From assembly GCA_026125285.1 (NCBI GenBank), contig JAHCLO010000005.1, positions 186,001 to 250,000 of the forward strand: a stretch of DNA of 64,000 nucleotides, written 5' to 3'. A program made the position numbers and the translations under genes. Positions 7,820 through 64,000 of the stretch are shown in pieces; within the stretch, counting starts at the first letter, position 1, and every line of letters starts with the position of its first letter. A model generated the notes under the pieces. It made no database searches, had not been told where the DNA came from, and was given only the letters and a program-made list of their open reading frames with translations. The stretch is from Verrucomicrobiia bacterium (lineage in GTDB: Bacteria; Verrucomicrobiota; Verrucomicrobiia; Limisphaerales; JADLHS01).

Positions 7820-9019
7820 ATGAAACGCAAAATACGAAACCACACCCGGCAACTCGTCCTCCTGGCCGCCTTGCTTGGCGCACTGAGCCTGCCCCATGTC
7901 CATGCCCAGTTCACCTTCAACTCCGGCAGCACCGGCGGCTACGGGCCGATGCACATCACCACCAACACCACGCTGGATTTGCCGCCCGACGGCATCTTCC
8001 ATTGCACCACCATCACCGTGGCCTCGAACGCCACGCTCAAGTTCACCCCCAACACCCTCAACACGCCCGTTTATCTGCTGGCCCAGGGTGACGTGGTCAT
8101 TGATGGGACGATTGATGTGAGCGGACAAGCTGGCACCGCATCATCAGGCGGAGCCGGTGGGCCGGGCGGGTTTGCGGGGGGAAACCCCGGAACCGGCGGC
8201 TTCCCGGCCAGTGACGGGCACGGGCCGGGCGCCGGTCGCGCCGGAACAGGCCTTGCTGCTGGATCACGTGTAGGAACCGGTGGCTACGGCGGTGTCGGTT
8301 CCCTGTATGAAATTGGCACCAATCATGGATCAACCTATGGCAGTCCCTTGCTCGTTCCGTTGACGGGTGGATCTGGCGGCGGTGGACGCCATGATGGTTA
8401 TGCTGGCTTGGGAGGTGGCGGCGCGATCCTGCTTGCTTCCAATACTCGCATTCATGTGTCAGGCGTCATCGTTTCCTCCGGTTCAATAAGGGATATATCC
8501 GCCTGTGGCTATGGGAGTGGTGGTGCGATAAGACTAGTTTCACCTTCTGTTAGCGGAGGAGGGAGCTTAGACGCTAGAGGAGGCTCTTGGACTGGAAGTC
8601 CCACGATCTACTACGGTGGTGCTGGCCGCATCCGGATTGACTGCATGGACCGGCGCGCGCTGGCCTTGAATCTGGTTCCCAGTTCTGTGGCCACCATCGG
8701 CGCCAACATGGTCGTCTTCCCGCCGAATGCCCCCCGATTGGATATCAGTCAGGTGGGAACGAACTCAATTCCCGTTCCGGCAACCGCGCCCGCCTTCTTC
8801 CTGCTGCCGCAAGGCTCGCCCACGAACCAAACCGTCCGCGTCCAAGCCAGCAACTTTGGCGCGGTGGTGCCCATCCGCGTGGTGCTCACCCCGGACAACG
8901 GCCCGAGCCGTTCCTACGAAGCCGAGATTGACAACACCACCATCAACCCCGCCGAGGTCACCGTGCCGGTGGTCGTGCCCGTGAATGTCCAAGTCCACGT
9001 GAACGCCTGGACGCGGTGA
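7820..9019 (+). CDS. glycine-rich exported surface protein
   Basis: The 399-residue product has a clear signal peptide (positively charged start, Leu/Ala core, Val-His-Ala cleavage site near residue 29). A strand-rich region like a right-handed beta-helix or filamentous-adhesin start follows, then a region about 40% glycine between residues 100 and 270 (Gly-Gly-Ala-Gly-Gly-Pro-Gly-Gly type). The C-terminal 100 residues look like a beta-sandwich. Similar glycine-rich proteins with unpaired beta-helix features are frequent in Verrucomicrobiota, but no function is assigned. It lies between the decayed subtilase and the cohesin-like gene, so a cell-surface role is likely. Confidence 0.75.
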   Translation: MKRKIRNHTRQLVLLAALLGALSLPHVHAQFTFNSGSTGGYGPMHITTNTTLDLPPDGIFHCTTITVASNATLKFTPNTLNTPVYLLAQGDVVIDGTIDVSGQAGTASSGGAGGPGGFAGGNPGTGGFPASDGHGPGAGRAGTGLAAGSRVGTGGYGGVGSLYEIGTNHGSTYGSPLLVPLTGGSGGGGRHDGYAGLGGGGAILLASNTRIHVSGVIVSSGSIRDISACGYGSGGAIRLVSPSVSGGGSLDARGGSWTGSPTIYYGGAGRIRIDCMDRRALALNLVPSSVATIGANMVVFPPNAPRLDISQVGTNSIPVPATAPAFFLLPQGSPTNQTVRVQASNFGAVVPIRVVLTPDNGPSRSYEAEIDNTTINPAEVTVPVVVPVNVQVHVNAWTR

Positions 9020-20479: not shown

Positions 20480-21169
20480 GGTTCATTTATCTATATTCCG
20501 ACGCACCCACGCCGCGTGGAGATCCAGGTAAAGCTGGTTTCGACCGCCATTGTGTGCCGACCAACCACCGGCGGGCGGCACGCTGGCACCAACACTCCAT
20601 TGGTCTTTGAAACCCGCCCACCACGGTTTCTCAAAGAACGAACTCATCATCCATTCTTCATCCGAAACACTGGCCTTCCGCGCGAGGGCGACGCTTTCCG
20701 GTGTTCGGCCGCGAAGATAGCGGGCGGCATCGGGATTCAACTCGGCCAGCTTGTCGCTGATGTAATTGGCCCAGCCCAGCGAGGGAGCGTTGGTGCCATT
20801 TTCGCGCCACGGGCCGAGGAAATGCGACTGCCACTGGTTCGACAGGGCCACCGGCACCGGCGGACTGAGCCAGATGCGGACGTTGGGCGCGTACGGGTGC
20901 AGCAAAGGCAGGAACGAGCCCATCGAGTTGTAGCGTTTGCCAGAGGGGTCCACGGGCGGCGTGAGTTGCAGATCGGCATCCGGGACATACGGCATCTTAT
21001 TGGCGTGGTCCTGCAGATACATGGCGGTGGCGATGGCCACCTGATGCAAATTCGAGATGCAGGCGGTGCGCTGCGCGCGTTGCTTCGCTTTGCTGAGGGC
21101 CGGCAGCAACATCGCCGCGAGAACGCCAATGATGGCAATGACCACCAGCAATTCGATCAGCGTGAAGGC
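20480..21169 (-). repeat. 690-base duplicated cassette, copy 1
   Basis: The copy at 51530-52219 lies in the same orientation and differs by six substitutions and no gaps. The cassette runs from the Ala codon before Phe-Thr-Leu-Ile-Glu to three bases past the stop codon. Leader and flanks outside it are unrelated. Confidence 0.95.
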
Positions 21170-21238
21170 GAGTCGGACAATATCCAACGGTGAAGAACGA
21201 GGCGTGGGGTGTTTTGGTTTGACTGAGACTTTGCTCAT
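20483..21238 (-). CDS. prepilin-like protein (type II secretion/DUF1559-like), copy 1
   Basis: This 251-residue protein has a prepilin leader ending Arg-Leu-Ala, followed by [10 protein letters not shown]. Glu5 is in place and a hydrophobic helix should anchor it until peptidase cleavage and N-methylation. The globular part has an aromatic-rich end with His-Asn-Gly-Gly-Arg-Asn. Such proteins are extremely abundant in Verrucomicrobiota and Planctomycetota, where most are of unknown role. Its mature sequence is almost identical to the copy near 52 kb, but the leader of about 23 residues is unrelated. Confidence 0.9.
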
Positions 21239-51529: not shown

Positions 51530-52219
51530 GGTTCATTTATCTATATTCCGACGCACCCACGCCGCGTGGAGATCCAGGTAAAGCTGGTTTCGACCGCCAT
51601 TGTGTGCCGACCAGCCACCGGCGGGCGGCACGCTGGCACCAACACTCCATTGGTCTTTGAAACCCGCCCACCACGGTTTCTCAAAGAACGGACTCATCAT
51701 CCATTCTTCATCCGAAACACTGGCCTTCCGCGCGAGGGCGACGCTTTCCGGTGTTCGGCCGCGAAGATAGCGGGCGGCATCGGGATTCAACTCGGCCAGC
51801 TTGTCGCTGATGTAATTGGCCCAGCCCAGCGAGGGAGCGTTGGTGCCATTTTCGCGCCACGGGCCGAGGAAATGCGACTGCCACTGGTTCGACAGGGCCA
51901 CCGGCACCGGCGGACTGAGCCAGATGCGGACGTTGGGCGCGTACGGGTGCAGCAAAGGCAGGAACGAGCCCATCGAGTTGTAGCGTTTGCCAGAGGGGTC
52001 CACGGGCGGCGTGAGTTGCAGATCGGCATCCGGGACATACGGCATCTTAGTGGCGTGGTCCTGCAGATACATGGCGGTGGCGATGGCCACCTGATGCAAA
52101 TTCGAGATGCAGGCGGTGCGCTGCGCGCGTTGCTTCGCTTTGCTGAGGGCCGGCAGCAACATCGCCGCGAGAATGCCAATGATGGTAATCACCACCAGCA
52201 ATTCGATCAGCGTGAAGGC
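51530..52219 (-). repeat. 690-base duplicated cassette, copy 2
   Basis: Direct repeat of 20480-21169 at an offset of exactly 31,050 bases, with six mismatches. Four of these change an amino acid. No insertion-sequence ends or target duplications are visible at its borders. Confidence 0.95.
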
Positions 52220-52291
52220 AAATCCAGAAGTCCAAGACGACACAAAACCGACACTACCGCGCTTCACGTTGGAGGGCGAATCTGTAATCAT
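51533..52291 (-). CDS. prepilin-like protein, copy 2
   Basis: The mature part has four replacements relative to copy 1 (Thr for Ala and Ile for Val in the hydrophobic helix, Thr for Asn, Pro for Ser). The leader before Phe-Thr-Leu-Ile-Glu is entirely different (ending Trp-Thr-Ser-Gly-Phe-Ala). The ATG at 52291 follows a GACAGG sequence and gives a normal leader length. A start at 52339 would add 16 residues. The role is unknown. It lies just beyond the three-gene surface operon and is convergent with it. Confidence 0.88.
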
Positions 52292-52449
52292 CCTGTCAAA
52301 GTTGGCACCGAGCATTGCGAGCAGGTGTGAAAGTGTCAAACTGGATTGTCGCCAATGTGCAGGTGGGGGGGTGGAGGTCTGGTCCTTTTAAGCTTTTGCC
52401 CGATTGAACGGCATCCGTAAGGACTGGGATCATTTTGAGGAGCCACACC

Positions 52450-53292
52450 TCAACGCTCAAACACGAAGCGGCTGCCGACGTCCGCTGCGGCACAGCGACC
52501 GGGAAAGCTTTCCCACAGACGCGCCAGCGCCACCAGGCCGGTGCAATGTGCCGGCGCGAGCAGCGGCACATTCCAACGACGCAACGCTTCAACTGTGTCC
52601 GCGAGCCTTTCCGGAGAAGCATTGAGGAGGTGCATGCCACCCAGCACGGCACGGAGAGGAGCGCCTTCTACGAGTTGTTCAATGTGGAGCAATGTGTTTA
52701 CCACACCCGCATGCGCACAGCCGAGCACCACCACGACACCTTCGGCTGTTGGGAAATACAAAGCCTGATCGTCCATCAGGGGATCTGGTTGCTGGCATTG
52801 TTCGTCCAGAAAGAACCGCCCGCCAACATCCTCAAAGTCTGTGCGCCGTGGGATTTCGCCGGTGACAAAAACGCCTTGGATCACTTCCTGATGAGTCTGC
52901 GTCACGACCAGGTTCTTACCAATTCCGGCCACAGCCTGCCTGCTCGCCTCCGGCATTCCGATGTAACGGGCAACGCCCGGAGTGCTGCCGCTGAACTTGG
53001 GCTGCATCGCCGCTGGGTGCAGAAAGACTCGGGTGTTGGGAGACCTGTGGCGCACGGCGGCCAGTCCGCCGGTGTGATCGTCGTGCCCGTGACTGAGCAC
53101 GATGGCATCAAGGTCTTCCAGCGAACAGCCGAGAGTCCCGGCGTTTTCGAGCACCAATTCCGTCTGGCCCGTGTCGAACAGCACGCGCCGCCCGCCGCTT
53201 TCGATGAGGAACGACAAACCGTGCTCCGCTTTCAACCCGCGCCGGTGAACCGAGTTCTCCACGAGCACGGTGATGCAAAATTTTTCACTCAT
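52450..53292 (-). CDS. MBL-fold metallo-hydrolase (dihydropterin-synthase-like branch)
   Basis: A 280-residue metallo-beta-lactamase-fold enzyme with the binuclear metal motif His68-Gly-His70-Asp-Asp72-His73. Further ligand candidates are Gly-Cys-Ala-His and a late Pro-Ala-His-Cys-Thr-Gly. The overall pattern (Leu-Phe-Asp-Thr-Gly-Gln-Thr start, Gly-Gly-Met-His-Leu) is that of archaeal/bacterial MBL proteins related to the 4-(beta-D-ribofuranosyl)aminobenzene 5'-phosphate synthase family. Relatives are often encoded with NifX/NifB-like proteins, which also occur in this cluster. The start overlaps the thioesterase end by eight bases, so the two are co-transcribed. Confidence 0.85.
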   Translation of the reverse strand: MSEKFCITVLVENSVHRRGLKAEHGLSFLIESGGRRVLFDTGQTELVLENAGTLGCSLEDLDAIVLSHGHDDHTGGLAAVRHRSPNTRVFLHPAAMQPKFSGSTPGVARYIGMPEASRQAVAGIGKNLVVTQTHQEVIQGVFVTGEIPRRTDFEDVGGRFFLDEQCQQPDPLMDDQALYFPTAEGVVVVLGCAHAGVVNTLLHIEQLVEGAPLRAVLGGMHLLNASPERLADTVEALRRWNVPLLAPAHCTGLVALARLWESFPGRCAAADVGSRFVFER

Positions 53293-53728
53293 GAGGTCTG
53301 ATGAATTTCCCTAGCGCCCGGGCTTTGACTTTTCCGCCTTGCGCGATTTCCGCACGCAATTCGAGCAAGCCATGGCGGGACGACTCCCGCCAAGCGCGCA
53401 CGGAGAGTTCTTCTGCCGCCTGCACGGGGGAGCGGTAGCGCACCCGGAGGTCGGCGGTCAACGCTCGGATGCCGCGGGCGAAGAGGCAATGGGTCATGGC
53501 CCCATCGAGCAGCGTGGCCACGATGCCGCCGTGCAGCACGCCGGGGTAACCTTCCAACGCGCAATTGCCGATGAAAGATGCGCTGACACTTCCATCCGGG
53601 GCGGTGGTGTAGCGCAAGGCCAGCCCCAGAGGATTGGAGGCGCTGCAGGCGAAGCAGAACGGATGCGCTTCCGCTTGCGTGCTGCGGCGAGCGATTTCGA
53701 CATCCGTGGAATCAACTGGCGTTGTCAT
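53285..53728 (-). CDS. PaaI-family hotdog thioesterase
   Basis: A 147-residue hotdog-fold protein with a Cys-Phe-Ala-Cys N-terminal motif and the acyl-CoA thioesterase signature Gly-Val-Leu-His-Gly-Gly-Ile-Val-Ala-Thr-Leu-Leu-Asp-Gly-Ala. The His-Gly-Gly and Asp are the active-site residues of PaaI/YbgC-like enzymes. The ATG is preceded by GGAGG. It is the first gene of a pair with the MBL protein, and a sigma-54-type motif lies directly upstream. The substrate is an unknown acyl- or aryl-CoA. Confidence 0.9.
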   Translation of the reverse strand: MTTPVDSTDVEIARRSTQAEAHPFCFACSASNPLGLALRYTTAPDGSVSASFIGNCALEGYPGVLHGGIVATLLDGAMTHCLFARGIRALTADLRVRYRSPVQAAEELSVRAWRESSRHGLLELRAEIAQGGKVKARALGKFIRPHE

Positions 53729-53742
53729 TGGAGAACCTCCAA

Positions 53743-53757
53743 GCAATGGCAATGCCA
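53743..53757 (-). promoter_or_regulatory. sigma-54-type promoter before the thioesterase
   Basis: Minus strand TGGCAT-TGCCA-TTGC has GG and GC separated by ten bases, as in -24/-12 promoters. Transcription would start about three bases before the ATG, downstream of the GGAGG site. This makes either the promoter or the ribosome site questionable. Confidence 0.45.
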
Positions 53758-53879
53758 GTGGTAGCGGCGGCCATCCTGGCTGCCGTAGAGCCGCGGCGTC
53801 CCGCCCGGCAGATAACGTGGCCGAACTTGCTTGAATGGAGAAAATCACAAGCCACAGGATGATTCGTGCGGCTTGTTCC

Positions 53880-53898: not shown

Positions 53899-54006
53899 TC
53901 TACGGCAGGCGAGACGCCCGTCGCTACTTCCACCGTGGCAAAATGCCATTGCGAACCGGCATGGGAACGCGGAAGATGCAATGGCAGCTTCATCCGCCGC
54001 CCAATT

Positions 54007-55329
54007 ATGAACGACGGTTTCCACAGCCAACTGCTCGACTCGGTGCCCGATGGGGTTTTCACCGTGGACGCCGAGTGGCGCGTCACGTCGTTCAACCGCG
54101 CGGCCGAACAGATCACCGGCGTGCGCCGGCAGGAGGCCATTGGGCGACCGTGCTGCGAGGTATTTCGCGCCAGCATCTGTGAAAGCGCCTGCGCGCTGAA
54201 GCAGACGCTTGCGACGCGCCGGCCCATTTCGAACAAGGTGGTTTACATCGTGAACGCGCAGGGCGAGCGGATTCCCATCAGTATTTCGACGGCCGCGCTC
54301 AAGGATGCTCGCGGCAAAATCATCGGCGGAGTGGAGAGCTTTCGCGATCTGCGGTTGGTCAACGAACTGCGGCAGGAGGCGGAACAGCAGGATTCCTTCT
54401 CAGACATCATCGGTCGGAGCGCGGCGATGCGGCAGTTGTTCGACCTGCTGCCCGCCGTGGCCGAAAGCGACAGCACGGTGTTGCTCGAAGGGACAAGCGG
54501 CACGGGCAAGGAATTGTTCGCCCGCGCCATTCATCAGCTTTCCGGACGGCGCGCGAAGAAATTCGTCGCCCTCAACTGTGGCGCATTGCCCGACACGCTG
54601 CTGGAGAGCGAATTGTTCGGCTACAAGGCGGGCGCGTTCACCGACGCGCGCAAGGACAAGCCCGGCCGCTTCGCGCTGGCGGAGGGTGGCACGTTGTTCC
54701 TCGACGAAATCGGAGACATCTCGCCCGCGATGCAGTCGCGATTGTTGCGCGTGTTGCAGGAGCGAACCTATGAGCCATTGGGCGGGGTTGAACCGATTCG
54801 CGCCAACGTCCGCGTGATCGCGGCCACGAACAAATCGCTGGAAAACCTCGTGCGCGACGGAAAGTTCCGCGACGACCTGTTCTATCGCATCAACGTGGTG
54901 CGCCTGGAACTGCCGGCGCTGCGGGATCGGCGCGAGGATTTGCCGTTGCTGATTGATCATCTGATCGCGAGGTTCAACCGGCTCAAGGCGCGCGACATCG
55001 CCGGCGTTTCCGATGCCGTGCTGGCGCGGTTGATGGAATACGATTTTCCCGGCAACGTGCGCGAATTGGAAAACATCATCGAGCACGCGTTCGCGTTGTG
55101 TCGGGGCGGCTTGATTGAGCTGAACCATTTGCCGCCGAAGTTGCGCGGAGACGAAGCTGTGCTAGGCAGCGGCCTGCCGCCCGGGGTGACGCTGGCGGCG
55201 ATGGAGAAGTTGCTCATTCGCGATGCGCTGCGCCGGAACAACGACAACCGGGCGGCCGCTGCCCGCGAGCTGGGCATTGATGCGAGCACACTGTTCCGGA
55301 AGCTCAAGACGCTGAAGCTGAACGGTTGA
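54007..55329 (+). CDS. sigma-54-dependent activator with PAS domain
   Basis: A 440-residue enhancer-binding protein. A PAS domain (about 5-115) contains Cys49, Cys50, Cys58 and Cys62, a spacing that could bind an iron-sulfur cluster or sense redox. The AAA+ domain has Walker A Gly-Thr-Ser-Gly-Thr-Gly-Lys-Glu at 162-169 and Walker B Leu-Phe-Leu-Asp-Glu-Ile-Gly-Asp. The sigma-54 contact loop is Gly-Ala-Phe-Thr-Asp-Ala at 209-214, where most have Gly at position five. A Fis-type helix-turn-helix ends the chain. The ATG before Asn-Asp-Gly-Phe starts the PAS domain directly. It lies in the middle of genes preceded by sigma-54-type motifs and is the obvious candidate to control them. Confidence 0.95.
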   Translation: MNDGFHSQLLDSVPDGVFTVDAEWRVTSFNRAAEQITGVRRQEAIGRPCCEVFRASICESACALKQTLATRRPISNKVVYIVNAQGERIPISISTAALKDARGKIIGGVESFRDLRLVNELRQEAEQQDSFSDIIGRSAAMRQLFDLLPAVAESDSTVLLEGTSGTGKELFARAIHQLSGRRAKKFVALNCGALPDTLLESELFGYKAGAFTDARKDKPGRFALAEGGTLFLDEIGDISPAMQSRLLRVLQERTYEPLGGVEPIRANVRVIAATNKSLENLVRDGKFRDDLFYRINVVRLELPALRDRREDLPLLIDHLIARFNRLKARDIAGVSDAVLARLMEYDFPGNVRELENIIEHAFALCRGGLIELNHLPPKLRGDEAVLGSGLPPGVTLAAMEKLLIRDALRRNNDNRAAAARELGIDASTLFRKLKTLKLNG

Positions 55330-56458: not shown

Positions 56459-56473
56459 TGGCACAAGCAGTGC
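56459..56473 (+). promoter_or_regulatory. sigma-54-type promoter before the thioredoxin-like gene
   Basis: TGGCAC-AAGCA-GTGC has exact GG-N10-GC spacing. The predicted start of transcription lies only two bases before the chosen ATG, although AAGGA lies just before that ATG. Confidence 0.65.
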
Positions 56474-56831: not shown

Positions 56832-57142
56832 GGGCCGGCGTTGGGATGTCGCGGATGGTGTGTTTGGCGGAAGCCGAAGCGTAGCGTTTCGCCACGCTCA
56901 CGGTTCGCAAGTGTGGCATCCCGCCACGCATTGCCAGATTGCGTATGAGCTGCACTTCGCACGCGCACCAGTGGGCGCTGTAGTCGCGCCCGCTTCAGTC
57001 AGATTCGGCCCTGGCACGGACACTGCCACTGGGCTTGGGTGACGGTTGGAACTATTTGCGGCGATGCGGTTCTGTCTTGATAGTGCGGGAAAACAAATGC
57101 CGACACGGGATCTTCACCATAACCCTGGAAATCTAAACAAGA
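56832..57142. other. gap with a sigma-54-type promoter
   Basis: No gene is supported. Short palindromes (GTGGC-ATCCC-GCCAC near 56.92 kb) precede a sigma-54-type motif at 57012. The leader of the oxidoreductase gene would be about 105 bases. Confidence 0.5.
57012..57026 (+). promoter_or_regulatory. sigma-54-type promoter before the oxidoreductase
   Basis: TGGCAC-GGACA-CTGC, with GG at 57013-57014 and GC at 57025-57026. It would give a leader of about 105 bases. Confidence 0.65.
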
Positions 57143-58861
57143 ATGAAACCAAATCGAATCCTCATCATTGGCGGTGTGGCGACGGGCGCGAAAGCCGCCG
57201 CGCGGGCGCGCCGCCGCGATCCCCACGCGGAAATCACCATCGTCGAGCGCGGGCGTCTGCTCTCCTACGCGGGCTGCGGCATGCCGTATTACATTCAAGG
57301 ACAAGTGCATGACTTCCACGAGTTGATGTCCACGCCGGTCGGCGTCGTTCGGGACGGGACGTTTTTTCAGAACGTGAAGGACATTCGCGTGCTCAACCTG
57401 ACGCTGGCGGAGAAAATTGATCGCGCGCGCAGGATGGTTGCCGTGGTCAACGTCACCACCGGTGAGAAAAGCGAGTTGCCGTACGACAAACTGGTCATCG
57501 CGACGGGTGGAGTGCCGTTCGAGCCGCGGATCGAAGGCGTGAATTTGAACCGCGTGTTCCGGCTGAACCTGCCGGACGATGCGCTCGCGATTCGCGAGGC
57601 CACCGAACACGGCAATATCAGGCGGGCCGTGCTGATTGGGGGTGGTTTGATTGGTCTGGAGACCGCCGAAGCCCTGGTGGCGCGCGGCATCCAGGTCACC
57701 ATCGTCGAGATGCTCGATCAACTGCTTCCGGCGATGCTGGACTGGGAAGTCGCGGCCTTTCTGGAAAAATATCTGCGCGGACGCGGGCTCGACATCCGGC
57801 TCAATCAGAAAGTCACGCGGCTGGAAGGTGACGGCGATGGCAACGTCGCACGCGTGCATACGACGGCCGAAGTGATCGAGGCGCAGATGGTCTTGATCGC
57901 CATCGGCATTCGGCCGAATGTGCAACTCGCCAAGGACGCCGGCCTGGCGCTCGGCGCGACCGGTGCGATTGCGGTCAATGAGCAACTTCAGACCAGTGAC
58001 CCCGACATTTACGCAGGTGGTGATTGTGTCGAATGCACGCATCTGCTTACCGGACAGAAGGTATTCGTTCCGCTTGGTTCGACAGCGAATAAACATGGCC
58101 GTGTCATTGGCGACAACGTCACGGGCGGCAAATCCACCTTCCCCGGCATTGTGGGCACGACTGTCTTCAAAGTGCTCGATTACAATCTAGCTCGCACCGG
58201 CCTGACGGAAAAGCAGGCGCGACAGCTTGGCCACGATGTGCTGACCGCGCTGGTGCCCGGACCGGATCGCGCGCACTATTATCCGACCGCGGCGACCCTG
58301 CTCGTGAAGCTCGTCGCTGACGCCAAGAGCGGAAAACTGTTGGGCGCGCAAGCCATCGGCCCTGGCGACGCGGTCAAGCGGATTGATGTGCTGGGCACCG
58401 CGCTGACGCTCGGCGCGACGATTGATCACCTGCCGGATTTGGACCTCGGCTACGCTCCACCGTATTCGTCCGCGGTGGATCCACTGGCGCACGCCGCCAA
58501 CGTGTTGCGGAACAAACGCGACGGCCTCGCGCGGGCGCTCACGCCGCAGCAGTTGAAAACCAAGCTCGACACCGACGACCCCGTCGTGCTGCTGGACGTG
58601 CGCACACCGCCGGAGCGCGACCAGATGCAATTGCGCGACCCGCGCGTCGTTTGGATTCCGCTGGGCCAGTTGCGCAAGCGGGTGGCGGAGATTCCCCGCG
58701 ATCGTGAGATCGTTTGCTACTGCAAAGTCAGCCAGCGCGGTTACGAAGCGCAACGGATCTTGGACGGCGAGGGTTTCACCAATGTGAAATTCCTCGATGG
58801 CGGATTGGTAGCCTGGCCGTATCCCTTTGGTGACGGTAACGGTCAGGCAGAAAGGAAGTGA
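57143..58861 (+). CDS. CoA-disulfide-reductase-type flavoprotein fused to rhodanese
   Basis: A 572-residue fusion. The first 450 residues are a two-dinucleotide-binding flavoprotein with FAD motif Ile-Gly-Gly-Val-Ala-Thr-Gly, the redox-active Cys45 in Ser-Tyr-Ala-Gly-Cys-Gly-Met-Pro-Tyr, the NAD motif Ile-Gly-Gly-Gly-Leu-Ile-Gly and the FAD-binding Ile-Tyr-Ala-Gly-Gly-Asp. The C-terminal 100 residues are a rhodanese domain whose loop reads Cys-Tyr-Cys-Lys-Val-Ser-Gln-Arg. Such fusions reduce CoA-disulfides, persulfides or polysulfides with NADH. The DUF302 gene starts three bases after its stop. Acts in the cytoplasm on thiol and sulfur balance. Confidence 0.93.
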   Translation: MKPNRILIIGGVATGAKAAARARRRDPHAEITIVERGRLLSYAGCGMPYYIQGQVHDFHELMSTPVGVVRDGTFFQNVKDIRVLNLTLAEKIDRARRMVAVVNVTTGEKSELPYDKLVIATGGVPFEPRIEGVNLNRVFRLNLPDDALAIREATEHGNIRRAVLIGGGLIGLETAEALVARGIQVTIVEMLDQLLPAMLDWEVAAFLEKYLRGRGLDIRLNQKVTRLEGDGDGNVARVHTTAEVIEAQMVLIAIGIRPNVQLAKDAGLALGATGAIAVNEQLQTSDPDIYAGGDCVECTHLLTGQKVFVPLGSTANKHGRVIGDNVTGGKSTFPGIVGTTVFKVLDYNLARTGLTEKQARQLGHDVLTALVPGPDRAHYYPTAATLLVKLVADAKSGKLLGAQAIGPGDAVKRIDVLGTALTLGATIDHLPDLDLGYAPPYSSAVDPLAHAANVLRNKRDGLARALTPQQLKTKLDTDDPVVLLDVRTPPERDQMQLRDPRVVWIPLGQLRKRVAEIPRDREIVCYCKVSQRGYEAQRILDGEGFTNVKFLDGGLVAWPYPFGDGNGQAERK

Positions 58862-58864
58862 GTT

Positions 58865-59293
58865 ATGGGCGATTACAGCATTTCAACGGTGGTGAAGCTG
58901 CCGTTCGTCCGCGCGTTGCAGGAGACGTTTCGCGCGCTCAAGGAAGAGGAGTTTGTCGTCATTACTGAGATTGATCTGCAGGCGGAGCTCGAGAACAGAG
59001 TCGGTCAAAAGATCCGGCCTTACACGATTCTGGGCGTGTGGGTGCCCTCGTGGGAGTACCAGGCATTGGCGCACGAACCCGACATCGCGCTGCTGATGCC
59101 GAGTCACGTCTGTCTATGGGAAAACGCCGACGGCACCTGCACGTTGGCGACGGCGGATCTGAAGCACCTCTGTCACACGGAAGACAAATCGCCACTGGCT
59201 GAGGCGGCCCGGGCGGTCAATGCCCGGCTGCGAGCGGTCGTGGCCTCGGTGCAGTTTGCCGGAACGATGGCGAAGCCGACACTGACTCAATGA
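58865..59293 (+). CDS. DUF302 domain protein
   Basis: A 142-residue cytoplasmic protein with the DUF302 pattern: Ala-Leu-Lys-Glu-Glu-Glu-Phe near the start, the Tyr-Thr-Ile-Leu-Gly-Val-Trp strand, then Leu-Leu-Met-Pro-Ser-His-Val. The family fold is a small beta-barrel of unclear function, often near thiol and sulfur enzymes. It is coupled to the flavoprotein gene three bases upstream. Confidence 0.88.
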   Translation: MGDYSISTVVKLPFVRALQETFRALKEEEFVVITEIDLQAELENRVGQKIRPYTILGVWVPSWEYQALAHEPDIALLMPSHVCLWENADGTCTLATADLKHLCHTEDKSPLAEAARAVNARLRAVVASVQFAGTMAKPTLTQ

Positions 59294-60404: not shown

Positions 60405-60419
60405 TGGCACGTCCTGTGC
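60405..60419 (+). promoter_or_regulatory. sigma-54-type promoter before the NifX-like genes
   Basis: TGGCAC-GTCCT-GTGC has correct spacing. The predicted transcript start is only about one base before the GTG start codon, although GGGGAGAG lies between promoter and start. Confidence 0.6.
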
Positions 60420-60431
60420 CTGGGGAGAGTT

Positions 60432-60860
60432 GTGACTGTGGCCATTCCCATCTGGCGGGAGCGCGTGTCGCCGTTGCTCGACGCGGCGACGCGATTGCTG
60501 GTCGTGACCCGACAGCGCGGCATCGAAGCGCAGCGAAGGGAAATCTTGCTCGGAGCGCTCCCGCCAGCGGCGCTCGCCCGCAGTGTCGCGGAACTACGAG
60601 TGGACGTGCTGCTCTGCGCGGCCATCTCGGAGCCACTCCTGCGAGAATTGCGCACCCGCGGCGTCCGGGTACGCCCGCATCTGTGCGGTGAGGTGGAAGC
60701 CGTGCTGAGAGCCTTCTGCCATCGCCGGTTGTCGCGCGATGAGTTTCGGATGCCGGGTTGCTGGGGGCGGGATTTGCACGGCCGGTGTGGGAACCAGCGC
60801 AAATCCAGCGGATGGGCCACGAGCAATGTCAACTCCACAACATCGAAGTTACCATTATGA
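60432..60860 (+). CDS. NifX/NifB-type metal-cluster-binding protein 1
   Basis: A 142-residue member of the dinitrogenase iron-molybdenum cofactor family. It has Val-Ala-Ile-Pro-Ile-Trp, Arg-Val-Ser-Pro-Leu-Leu-Asp-Ala-Ala, Val-Asp-Val-Leu-Leu-Cys-Ala-Ala-Ile-Ser, His-Leu-Cys-Gly-Glu-Val and Met-Pro-Gly-Cys-Trp-Gly. The conserved cysteines near 80, 102 and 127 could bind metal or an iron-sulfur cluster. GTG starts at 60432 or, two codons later, 60438. It overlaps the next gene as ATGA. No nitrogenase genes are seen, so the role is more likely general metal-cluster carriage. Confidence 0.85.
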   Translation: MTVAIPIWRERVSPLLDAATRLLVVTRQRGIEAQRREILLGALPPAALARSVAELRVDVLLCAAISEPLLRELRTRGVRVRPHLCGEVEAVLRAFCHRRLSRDEFRMPGCWGRDLHGRCGNQRKSSGWATSNVNSTTSKLPL

Positions 60861-61312
60861 ACTCATTGTCTCCGACCCCGGCCCAATCGGGCATTTTGCG
60901 CATTGCCATCCCCCATGAAAACGGCCGCCTGCACGGCCACTTCGGCGGTTGCCGTGAGTTTGTGTTGGTGCAAGTGGACGCGGAAAAAAAGGTGGCGCTG
61001 CACACCGAAGTGTTGCCCGCGCCGGAACACAAGCCCGGTGCATTTCCGCGATGGCTGCGCGAGCAGGGCGTGGAGGTTGTCATTGCGGGCGGCATTGGTC
61101 AACGCGCGTTGGCCAACTTTGGCCATCACGGCATTACGGTGCGAGCCGGCACGGCAGACGCGTCCGTGGAACACCTGGTCACCGCGTATCTCAACGGTCA
61201 GTTGACTGCCACGCCCGATGGTTGCGAACACCACGAGCATCACCACCACCATGTGCATGGTCATGGTCACCACGATCATCACCACGGCCATCACGGAGAG
61301 GGCCAGACATGA
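60857..61312 (+). CDS. NifX/NifB-type protein 2 with histidine-rich tail
   Basis: A 151-residue relative of the previous gene. The core has Arg-Ile-Ala-Ile-Pro, Gly-Arg-Leu-His-Gly-His-Phe-Gly-Gly-Cys and Val-Val-Ile-Ala-Gly-Gly-Ile-Gly-Gln. The last 25 residues hold about 16 histidines in clusters (His-Glu-His-His-His-His-His), a typical nickel/zinc/cobalt buffer or delivery sequence. The start and stop overlap both neighbours by ATGA, so the four genes 60432-62531 are translated as one coupled unit. Confidence 0.9.
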   Translation: MNSLSPTPAQSGILRIAIPHENGRLHGHFGGCREFVLVQVDAEKKVALHTEVLPAPEHKPGAFPRWLREQGVEVVIAGGIGQRALANFGHHGITVRAGTADASVEHLVTAYLNGQLTATPDGCEHHEHHHHHVHGHGHHDHHHGHHGEGQT

Positions 61313-61665
61313 AAATCGCCGTGTTGCAAAGTGACGGCCGCTTGTTTCCGCAATGCAAGGAAAGCGGGCAGGTGGCGGTTCTGGAGGTTGATCCCGTCAA
61401 CCAAAGCGTTCGCCGAACCAAGTTGCTTTCGCCACCACCACAGGCCGTGGGCGCGCTGGCCGACTTGTTGGGCCGGGAGAACGTCGAAGTCTTGCTGGCG
61501 AGCGGCATTCCGCAGCGGGACCGCGAGTTGATCGAACAAAAGGGGATCGAAGTCATCGTCGGCGTGCCGCCGCATCGGGTTGAACCGGTGGTGGCAAATT
61601 ACCTGGCGGGTACGCTGCAAACGGGAGATAACCCTTGCGAGCAACCAGCGGGAGGCAGCGCATGA
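61309..61665 (+). CDS. NifX/NifB-type protein 3
   Basis: A 118-residue protein with a weaker version of the same fold: Lys-Ile-Ala-Val-Leu-Gln-Ser-Asp-Gly-Arg-Leu, Val-Glu-Val-Leu-Leu-Ala-Ser-Gly-Ile-Pro and Gly-Val-Pro-Pro-His. It lacks most of the cysteines of the first copy and has a single Cys near residue 19. Starts and ends with ATGA overlaps. Three different versions in a row suggest stepwise specialisation. Confidence 0.8.
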   Translation: MKIAVLQSDGRLFPQCKESGQVAVLEVDPVNQSVRRTKLLSPPPQAVGALADLLGRENVEVLLASGIPQRDRELIEQKGIEVIVGVPPHRVEPVVANYLAGTLQTGDNPCEQPAGGSA

Positions 61666-62531
61666 GATGCTTGCGGGCCGTTACAGTCGGATCGCAAACC
61701 CAGGTTGGGAATCTGACGGCTGGCGCGCCTTTGCCGGTTGAAGCGGTTCAAGCCAATCATCTTGCATTGGCGACGCGTAACGCAAACAACCTTCGATTTG
61801 GATACGACGTGGAGGCCAGCGTGCGGTTTGTGCTGAAGCACACGTTGCCTTTGCGCGGTCGCGTTTTGGACATCGGCACGGGCAAAGGCCGGTTTGTCAT
61901 TCCCCTGGCCCGGCATCTCTCCAAGGTTACGACCGTGGACATCAGCGCCAGGGAGCAGCGCATGGCGCGATTGGAGGCGACCCATGCCGGCGTGGCTGAC
62001 CGCATTGACTTCGTCCTGGCCGACGCGGGGGCGCTGCCGTGGCCGGCGGGCAGCTTCGACGCGGTGACATCGTGGAACGTGTTCCACCATCTTGACGATC
62101 CGGAGCGCGTGTTCAACGAACTGGTTCGCGTGCTGAAGCCCGGCGGCAAACTGGTGTTGGCTGATTTTTCCCCCGCAGGTTTTCGGATCATCGACACAAT
62201 TCACGCCGCGGAAGGCCGACGTCATCCGCACCCGCCGAGCCGGTTCTCGCATTGGTGCGCCGGACTGCGGCAGCGCGGTTTCGTGGTCAACCGATTCGTA
62301 AGCTGCCACCAAGAAATGCTGGTTGCGCGGTGTCCCCGGCACGGCACGCCGGAATACGGACAGCCTTGTCCGCATGCTGATACCAGCAACCACTCGCGGA
62401 CGATTCCGTCCGCGCTCCAGTTCCGACCGATTCATCAGAGAAGCTGCACCGTTGCCGCGTGGCTTCCCCGGAGTATCTCGCTCCGACCTGCCGCTTTCTT
62501 CCCGCGGGCCTCTGTTTCCAACATCAACTGA
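61662..62531 (+). CDS. class I SAM-dependent methyltransferase
   Basis: The product is 289 residues. Motif I reads Val-Leu-Asp-Ile-Gly-Thr-Gly-Lys-Gly, followed by Val-Thr-Thr-Val-Asp-Ile and a Phe-His-His-Leu-Asp-Asp segment like Methyltransf_11 proteins acting on small molecules. The final 60 residues (after Met-Leu-Val-Ala-Arg) are Ser/Arg-rich and have no counterpart in the fold, so the true domain ends near residue 225. Translation starts at the ATGA overlap with the third NifX-like gene. A role in metal, metalloid or thiol methylation is conceivable but not shown. Confidence 0.85.
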   Translation: MRCLRAVTVGSQTQVGNLTAGAPLPVEAVQANHLALATRNANNLRFGYDVEASVRFVLKHTLPLRGRVLDIGTGKGRFVIPLARHLSKVTTVDISAREQRMARLEATHAGVADRIDFVLADAGALPWPAGSFDAVTSWNVFHHLDDPERVFNELVRVLKPGGKLVLADFSPAGFRIIDTIHAAEGRRHPHPPSRFSHWCAGLRQRGFVVNRFVSCHQEMLVARCPRHGTPEYGQPCPHADTSNHSRTIPSALQFRPIHQRSCTVAAWLPRSISLRPAAFFPRASVSNIN

Positions 62532-62542
62532 AAGGACAAATC

Positions 62543-62962
62543 ATGAGCAAAGAAAATCTGATTCAAGGACTGAACGACGACCTCGCCGCCGAACTCGGCA
62601 CGGTCATTCGCTATACCTACCAGGCCGCCAAGTGCTATGGCCTGCAGGGCGCGGAATTGCGCGAACTCCTGGTCAAGGAGGCGCAAGATGAACTGGGCCA
62701 TGCCGCCTACCTGATGGATGTCATCGTGGACCTCGGGGGCGAACCGACCACCACGCCGAAGCCATTCGAGAAACCCGCCGATCTCAAGGGCATGATCGCG
62801 CTCAATGTGAAGATGGAGGCCGAAGACGTAACCAACTATCTGGCGCACGCGGAACTGGCCGAACAACTCAAACTGCCCGAGATTAAAATGAAGCTCGAAG
62901 AAATGGCTGCCGACGAGGCCGGGCACGGTCGCGAGTTGCGACGGCTTTTGAAGGGACTGTGA
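62543..62962 (+). CDS. bacterioferritin/rubrerythrin-like diiron protein
   Basis: A 139-residue four-helix protein with a complete diiron set: Glu in Ala-Ala-Glu-Leu-Gly-Thr-Val-Ile-Arg-Tyr, Glu-Leu-Gly-His, Glu-Ala-Glu-Asp and Glu-Ala-Gly-His-Gly. GAAAGGA precedes the ATG. It is clearly different from the ferritin-like protein at 55.4 kb, so the cluster encodes two. It begins 11 bases after the methyltransferase. Confidence 0.92.
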   Translation: MSKENLIQGLNDDLAAELGTVIRYTYQAAKCYGLQGAELRELLVKEAQDELGHAAYLMDVIVDLGGEPTTTPKPFEKPADLKGMIALNVKMEAEDVTNYLAHAELAEQLKLPEIKMKLEEMAADEAGHGRELRRLLKGL

Positions 62963-63967: not shown

Positions 63968-64000
63968 ATGAAAAACACCGAGAAGTCTTTGGCGGGCCAG
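63968..64000 (+). CDS. start of a further gene (cut by window end)
   Basis: An ATG preceded by AAAGGAG opens a frame of 11 codons to the end of the window (Met-Lys-Asn-Thr-Glu-Lys-Ser-Leu-Ala-Gly-Gln). It is too short to assign a family. Confidence 0.6.
   Translation, partial: MKNTEKSLAGQ

Follow-up and report, generated by a model that had tools for sequence, protein, structure and literature searches.

The 64,000-nucleotide stretch of DNA analysed here (hereafter, the window) carries three consecutive genes for small proteins of the PF02579 fold, designated A, B and C, followed by a gene for a methyltransferase, D (Table 1). Judging from the sequence, we consider it reasonably likely that these genes belong to a σ54-controlled cluster for the binding or delivery of metal clusters or metal ions, and that this cluster is a derived version of an orange-protein (ORP) type of operon. 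The reading draws on the match of B and C to the ORP domain, on the gene order of related loci that we term type I, and on the parallels with the orp operons of D. vulgaris. It draws also on a σ54 site at a fixed position before A and on an activator gene found along with A in 35 of the 52 A-containing loci, of which many are truncated by contig ends. Against it stands the composition of the clade to which the window belongs (type II), which lacks the defining ATPases of the orp core.

Table 1. Positions and characteristics of the cluster genes, the predicted promoter and neighbouring genes in the window
Feature	Position	Strand	Remarks
Metallo-beta-lactamase-fold (MBL) protein	52450..53292	-	Divergent from activator; present in 23/52 A loci
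Thioesterase (4HBT)	53285..53848	-	Adjoins MBL gene; σ54-like site at 53757
σ54-dependent activator (PAS-AAA+-HTH_8)	53974..55329	+	GAFTDA motif; PAS motif CCEVFRASICESACA
CoA-disulfide-reductase-like (CoADR-like)/rhodanese protein	57143..58861	+	Under equivalog cut-offs; σ54-like site at 57012
DUF302 protein	58865..59293	+	69-80% identical in L029, L075, L155
σ54 -24/-12 promoter, predicted	60405..60420	+	TGGCACGTCCTGTGCC; about 27-28 bases before A start codon
Gene A	60432..60860	+	PF02579-fold subfamily; FxMPGC motif; conserved Cys62, Cys85, Cys110
Gene B	60857..61312	+	ORP-domain protein; HFGGC motif; His-rich tail
Gene C	61309..61665	+	Diverged B-type copy; HFGxC motif gone; C-terminal GDNPCEQ
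Gene D, class I SAM-dependent methyltransferase	61662..62531	+	
Ferritin-like protein	62543..62962	+	PF00210 64.6 bits; 79-88% identical in L029, L070, L153, L155
CooC/MinD-like P-loop ATPase, start only	63968..64000	+	Continues past window end

Three overlapping genes of the PF02579 fold

ATGA overlaps at 60857, 61309 and 61662 form the joints between A and B, B and C, and C and the methyltransferase gene, and support the operon coupling suggested in an earlier note on this DNA. The description given there of three NifX-like genes in a row with a methyltransferase is borne out by profile and fold comparisons with PF02579. The Pfam scores are 21.9 bits for A, which is below the cut-off of 26.3, 68.7 bits for B and 32.0 bits for C, and no further PF02579 gene is encoded in the genome of 7.16 Mb. 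The three do share one fold, as had been claimed, but they are not equivalent members of it: a tree built from 56 PF02579 proteins sets A and its relatives apart as a separate clade (support 100/100) and places B and C together in another (99/98).

Gene A encodes five cysteines, at positions 62, 85, 96, 110 and 119, which agrees with the several cysteines noticed earlier. In the alignment, the first, second and fourth of these are conserved across the subfamily together with the FxMPGC motif. The AlphaFold2 model of the protein has a mean pLDDT of 84, and its best match in a Foldseek search was PH0822, with a TM score of 0.85 by target length. Confident matches were confined to PF02579-type structures, with NifX and the D. 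gigas orange protein among the weaker ones, and the profile search with gene A also finds PF02579 structures. By its predicted structure, gene A is a member of the PF02579 fold despite the Pfam score below cut-off. The fold is common to A and the uncharacterised structures MTH1175, PH0822 and TM1816, but A carries the FxMPGC tail and lacks the HFG motif of B-family proteins. Within the phylum, from which all the A sequences compared were taken, 104 of 388 genomes gave a match to the A profile, about 40 of them strong, and no match to gene A was found on plasmids. Gene A, at the front of the operon, represents a NifX-fold subfamily for which no library model has a name.

Gene B encodes 24 histidines in total, of which 16 lie within the last 28 residues, matching the earlier estimate of about 16 in this tail. 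The alignment places the HFGxC motif ahead of a C-x-H end, after which comes the tail, rich in His, Asp, Glu and Gly. The best profile for B is the C-terminal (Di-Nase/ORP) part of the MrpORP model NF041136, with 104.6 bits, and C matches the same part with 60.3 bits; both proteins align solely to positions 261–365 of this 365-position model, lack its P-loop NTPase domain and score far under the 450-bit cut-off. A profile labelled A2 matches the D. gigas ORP (2wfb) with an E-value of 7e-8. When gene B alone was used as the query of genome contigs, only one distant Kiritimatiellia locus was returned, and on plasmids there were distant matches only, at 27–37% identity.

The third gene has, as proposed earlier, lost most of its ligands: C contains no HFGxC motif and has just Cys16, Cys110 and one histidine. 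The AlphaFold2 prediction retains the fold (pLDDT 87). Most likely, C serves as a structural partner or is a copy in decay. It probably descends from a short-tailed B type, as suggested by the likeness of its GDNPCEQ end to the GxNxCDH end of short-tailed B proteins and by a weak grouping with these proteins in the tree (84/70, on a long branch). No adjacent second B resembling C was found in 320 genomes of the order. An independent-looking degenerate B-type gene with the sequence HFGEA, reminiscent of gene C, is present in genome G829 (L166, about 7909–8340), where an intact B lies about 3 kb away; in genome G703 some 5 kb separate two B genes.

A σ54 site at a fixed distance before gene A

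In most loci a σ54 −24/−12 site lies at −26 to −31 from the start codon of A. Of 17 loci fetched later, 16 contain A, and in 15 of these 16 the site is at −27 to −30 and scores at least 18 of 21.5; some of these loci are closely related to earlier ones, and their independence is incomplete. Several loci of other classes have the site farther upstream of A, at −33 to −51. Strong sites (score 19 or more) occur at a background rate of only about 9.6 per 100 kb of strand, so that the fixed position before A cannot be due to chance. The genome of the window contains rpoN, and the fixed promoter-to-start spacing makes σ54 control directly testable.

The usual distance from the −12 element to the transcription start was taken as 12 bases, and together with the spacing of the site this suggests that the A message begins 2–3 bases before the start codon and would be nearly leaderless. 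This reading is made less certain by the GTG start codons of A in about half of the loci, which are unusual for leaderless translation.

Activator orthologues from 25 loci carry GAFTDA in 16 cases and GAFTGA in 9, and all 25 have the cysteine motif C-[CSA]-x-V-[FL]-x(5)-C-x(3)-C-A in the PAS domain. In OrpR of D. vulgaris, a PAS-bound Fe-S cluster senses the redox state.

Additional σ54-like sites were noted in the window at 53757 (minus strand, thioesterase) and, on the plus strand, at 56459 (thioredoxin), 57012 (CoADR-like) and 59565 (a small secreted-looking gene). None of these four sites recurs ahead of the corresponding genes in relatives, and σ54 control of the thioredoxin, CoADR and hypothetical genes is therefore not proposed. 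A palindrome that might bind the activator was sought in the sequence preceding A and at the remaining σ54-like sites, and no shared one exceeded the shuffled control.

Two types of cluster across the phylum

As judged by gene content and order, the conserved unit in the phylum is σ54 activator–A–(X–two [4Fe-4S] MinD ATPases)–B and not an A-B-C triplet. Here X is a protein of MTH1175-like type with few or no cysteines, which makes up the third clade of the PF02579 tree (98/94). Type I loci comprise the activator, A, X, two MinD proteins bearing 4Fe-4S domains, and B, and in varying order they also have MBL, thioesterase, radical SAM, methyltransferase and ARMT1-like genes. Where B has the motif HFGHC, X or MinD ATPases are found in the same stretch in 18 of 19 cases, and where B has HFGG and a His-rich tail, X and MinD are absent in 18 of 20. 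The window is of this second kind (type II), with HFGG, a His tail and neither X nor MinD. A Fisher test of the link between B motif and X/MinD gives P 6e-8, a value that overstates the link and is not independent evidence, since the tree needs just two changes, close to one evolutionary event. Presence counts are in addition lower bounds, as several loci end at contig edges.

No MinD ATPase was detected in the whole genomes of the window and of G004, G010, G117 and G204, and one was found in the positive-control genomes G026, G051, G346, G356, G298 and G180. The cysteine of HFGGC is replaced by Ser or Ala in the type II loci L157, L159, L160 and L168, in keeping with a change to His ligands. 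Transfer of the cluster between lineages is probable, given that another family, from outside the order (f67), is represented in the type II clade and that a genome of the same genus as the window (G001) has no PF02579 gene.

These comparisons bear on the proposal in the earlier note of a graded relay of binding, storage and scaffold through A, B and C. The NifX-like fold, the coupling and a storage-like His-rich tail are supported; a relay built from A, B and C is not. The note named a triplet conserved nowhere among its possible refutations, and triplets do recur elsewhere, in G298, G346 and G356 (L062–L064). These triplets are A-B-X, however, with a third member from another clade, and G004 and G010, of the window's own family, have no third copy. 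The idea of A-B-C as a conserved triplet was consequently abandoned, as C has no adjacent counterpart in the 320 genomes. In two further loci (L068 and L069, genomes G086 and G220), an N-terminal part that by eye is DUF134-like is fused to a PF02579 domain, with a second PF02579 gene immediately downstream.

Relation to orp operons and proposed function

The ORP complex of D. vulgaris involves the ATPases Orp3 and Orp4 with [4Fe-4S] motifs, Orp5, the ORP-homologous Orp8 and MrpORP (PMC6345978). The orp operons are under the control of σ54 and the activator DVU2106 (PMC3897727), in which the σ54-contact motif is GAFTDA (PMC4641369). The orp operons (DVU2103–DVU2109) and the window are alike in the σ54 promoter, predicted in the case of the window, in a dedicated GAFTDA activator and in ORP/Di-Nase domains; type I relatives and the orp operons additionally have two MinD-like ATPases with 4Fe-4S domains in common. 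The window differs from the orp operons in that both Fe-S ATPases and X are absent, in that subfamily A, a His-tailed B and the methyltransferase are present, and in that no Mrp ATPase is fused to its ORP domain. Most knowledge of ORP systems comes from sulfate reducers, and what these systems do is not settled. The cluster described here would be a conserved version with a σ54 promoter in another phylum, and its loci with and without Fe-S ATPases offer a natural comparison that could show the roles of ATPases and carriers.

In the mechanism that we envisage, the PAS activator would sense redox or Fe-S status through its conserved cysteine motif, in the manner of OrpR, and fire the σ54 polymerase at the promoter recognized by comparison before A. 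Genes A, B, C and the methyltransferase gene would then be translated in a chain by way of their ATGA overlaps. A and B appear from fold and profile to be small carriers of the NifX/ORP type, of which A would bind through its three conserved cysteines and B through the HFG site, the C-x-H end and the His-rich tail. In type I, seemingly the ancestral arrangement, the carriers are accompanied by X and by two MinD ATPases that contain ferredoxin domains. With X and MinD gone from type II and the His-rich tail having appeared there, the cargo is probably a His-ligated metal or metal-sulfide, which may be passed on with the help of the downstream CooC-like ATPase. More tentatively, the window may represent a derived branch of a phylum-wide ORP-like system in which the Fe-S ATPases were dropped and the ORP carrier changed from Cys- to His-based metal binding, with a σ54 promoter giving a nearly leaderless message for A, a carrier not described before.

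The ZIP and heavy-metal P-type ATPase genes that recur in the clusters support a role in metal handling, and they would also suit the buffering of Zn, Ni or Co, with the His tail of B acting as a divalent-metal store for the CooC-like ATPase, alongside ZIP and the P-type ATPase and without any Fe-S chemistry. Tails rich in His are a typical feature of nickel and zinc chaperones, and the Ser or Ala at the HFGGC cysteine in the four type II loci is in line with this idea. Such buffering is nevertheless unlikely, as A keeps three cysteines, Fe-S chemistry is indicated by both the cysteine motif of the activator and the radical SAM enzyme, and the transporter genes are found in just a minority of the 52 A loci (P-type ATPase in 6, ZIP in 11).

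A storage function could likewise be imagined from the example of P. furiosus IssA (PF2025), which stores thioferrate and combines the PF02579 fold with a long, special tail at its C terminus (PMC5524996). The domain of B is also followed by a long, low-complexity tail and ferritin-like genes are nearby, so that Fe-S or metal might be stored with the NifX-fold domain nucleating a polymer around which the tail wraps, and with the ferritin-like protein as an iron partner. We regard this as quite improbable: the IssA tail is rich in glycine, aromatic residues and arginine, unlike that of B, and the presence of genes for the σ54 activator, the methyltransferase and the radical SAM enzyme suggests a function beyond storage. 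That the proteins are true NifX, carriers of the nitrogenase cofactor, is scarcely credible, for although they belong to the same Pfam family and fold, and NifX is among the fold matches of A, the closest profile is that of ORP and not NifX. A nitrogenase role was discarded on the finding that the genome contains no PF00148 gene (positive control, G045), which holds unless the assembly misses a nif cluster.

The methyltransferase and neighbouring genes

The association with a methyltransferase pointed out in the earlier note recurs, with a methyltransferase close to that of the window in 13 of the 52 A-containing loci. In L027 and L029 this gene overlaps B and the gene order is reversed. The last ~65 codons of the window's methyltransferase gene (62340–62531) have no counterpart in relatives and may reflect read-through or a shifted end. 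Past the end of the window (L021) there are radical SAM, thioredoxin, ARMT1-like, deformylase, heavy-metal P-type ATPase and ZIP genes. On the minus strand, a gene with a pilin-like N-terminal methylation motif is present in two copies (20483–21238 and 51533–52339), 31 kb apart and 99.1% identical over 687 bases.
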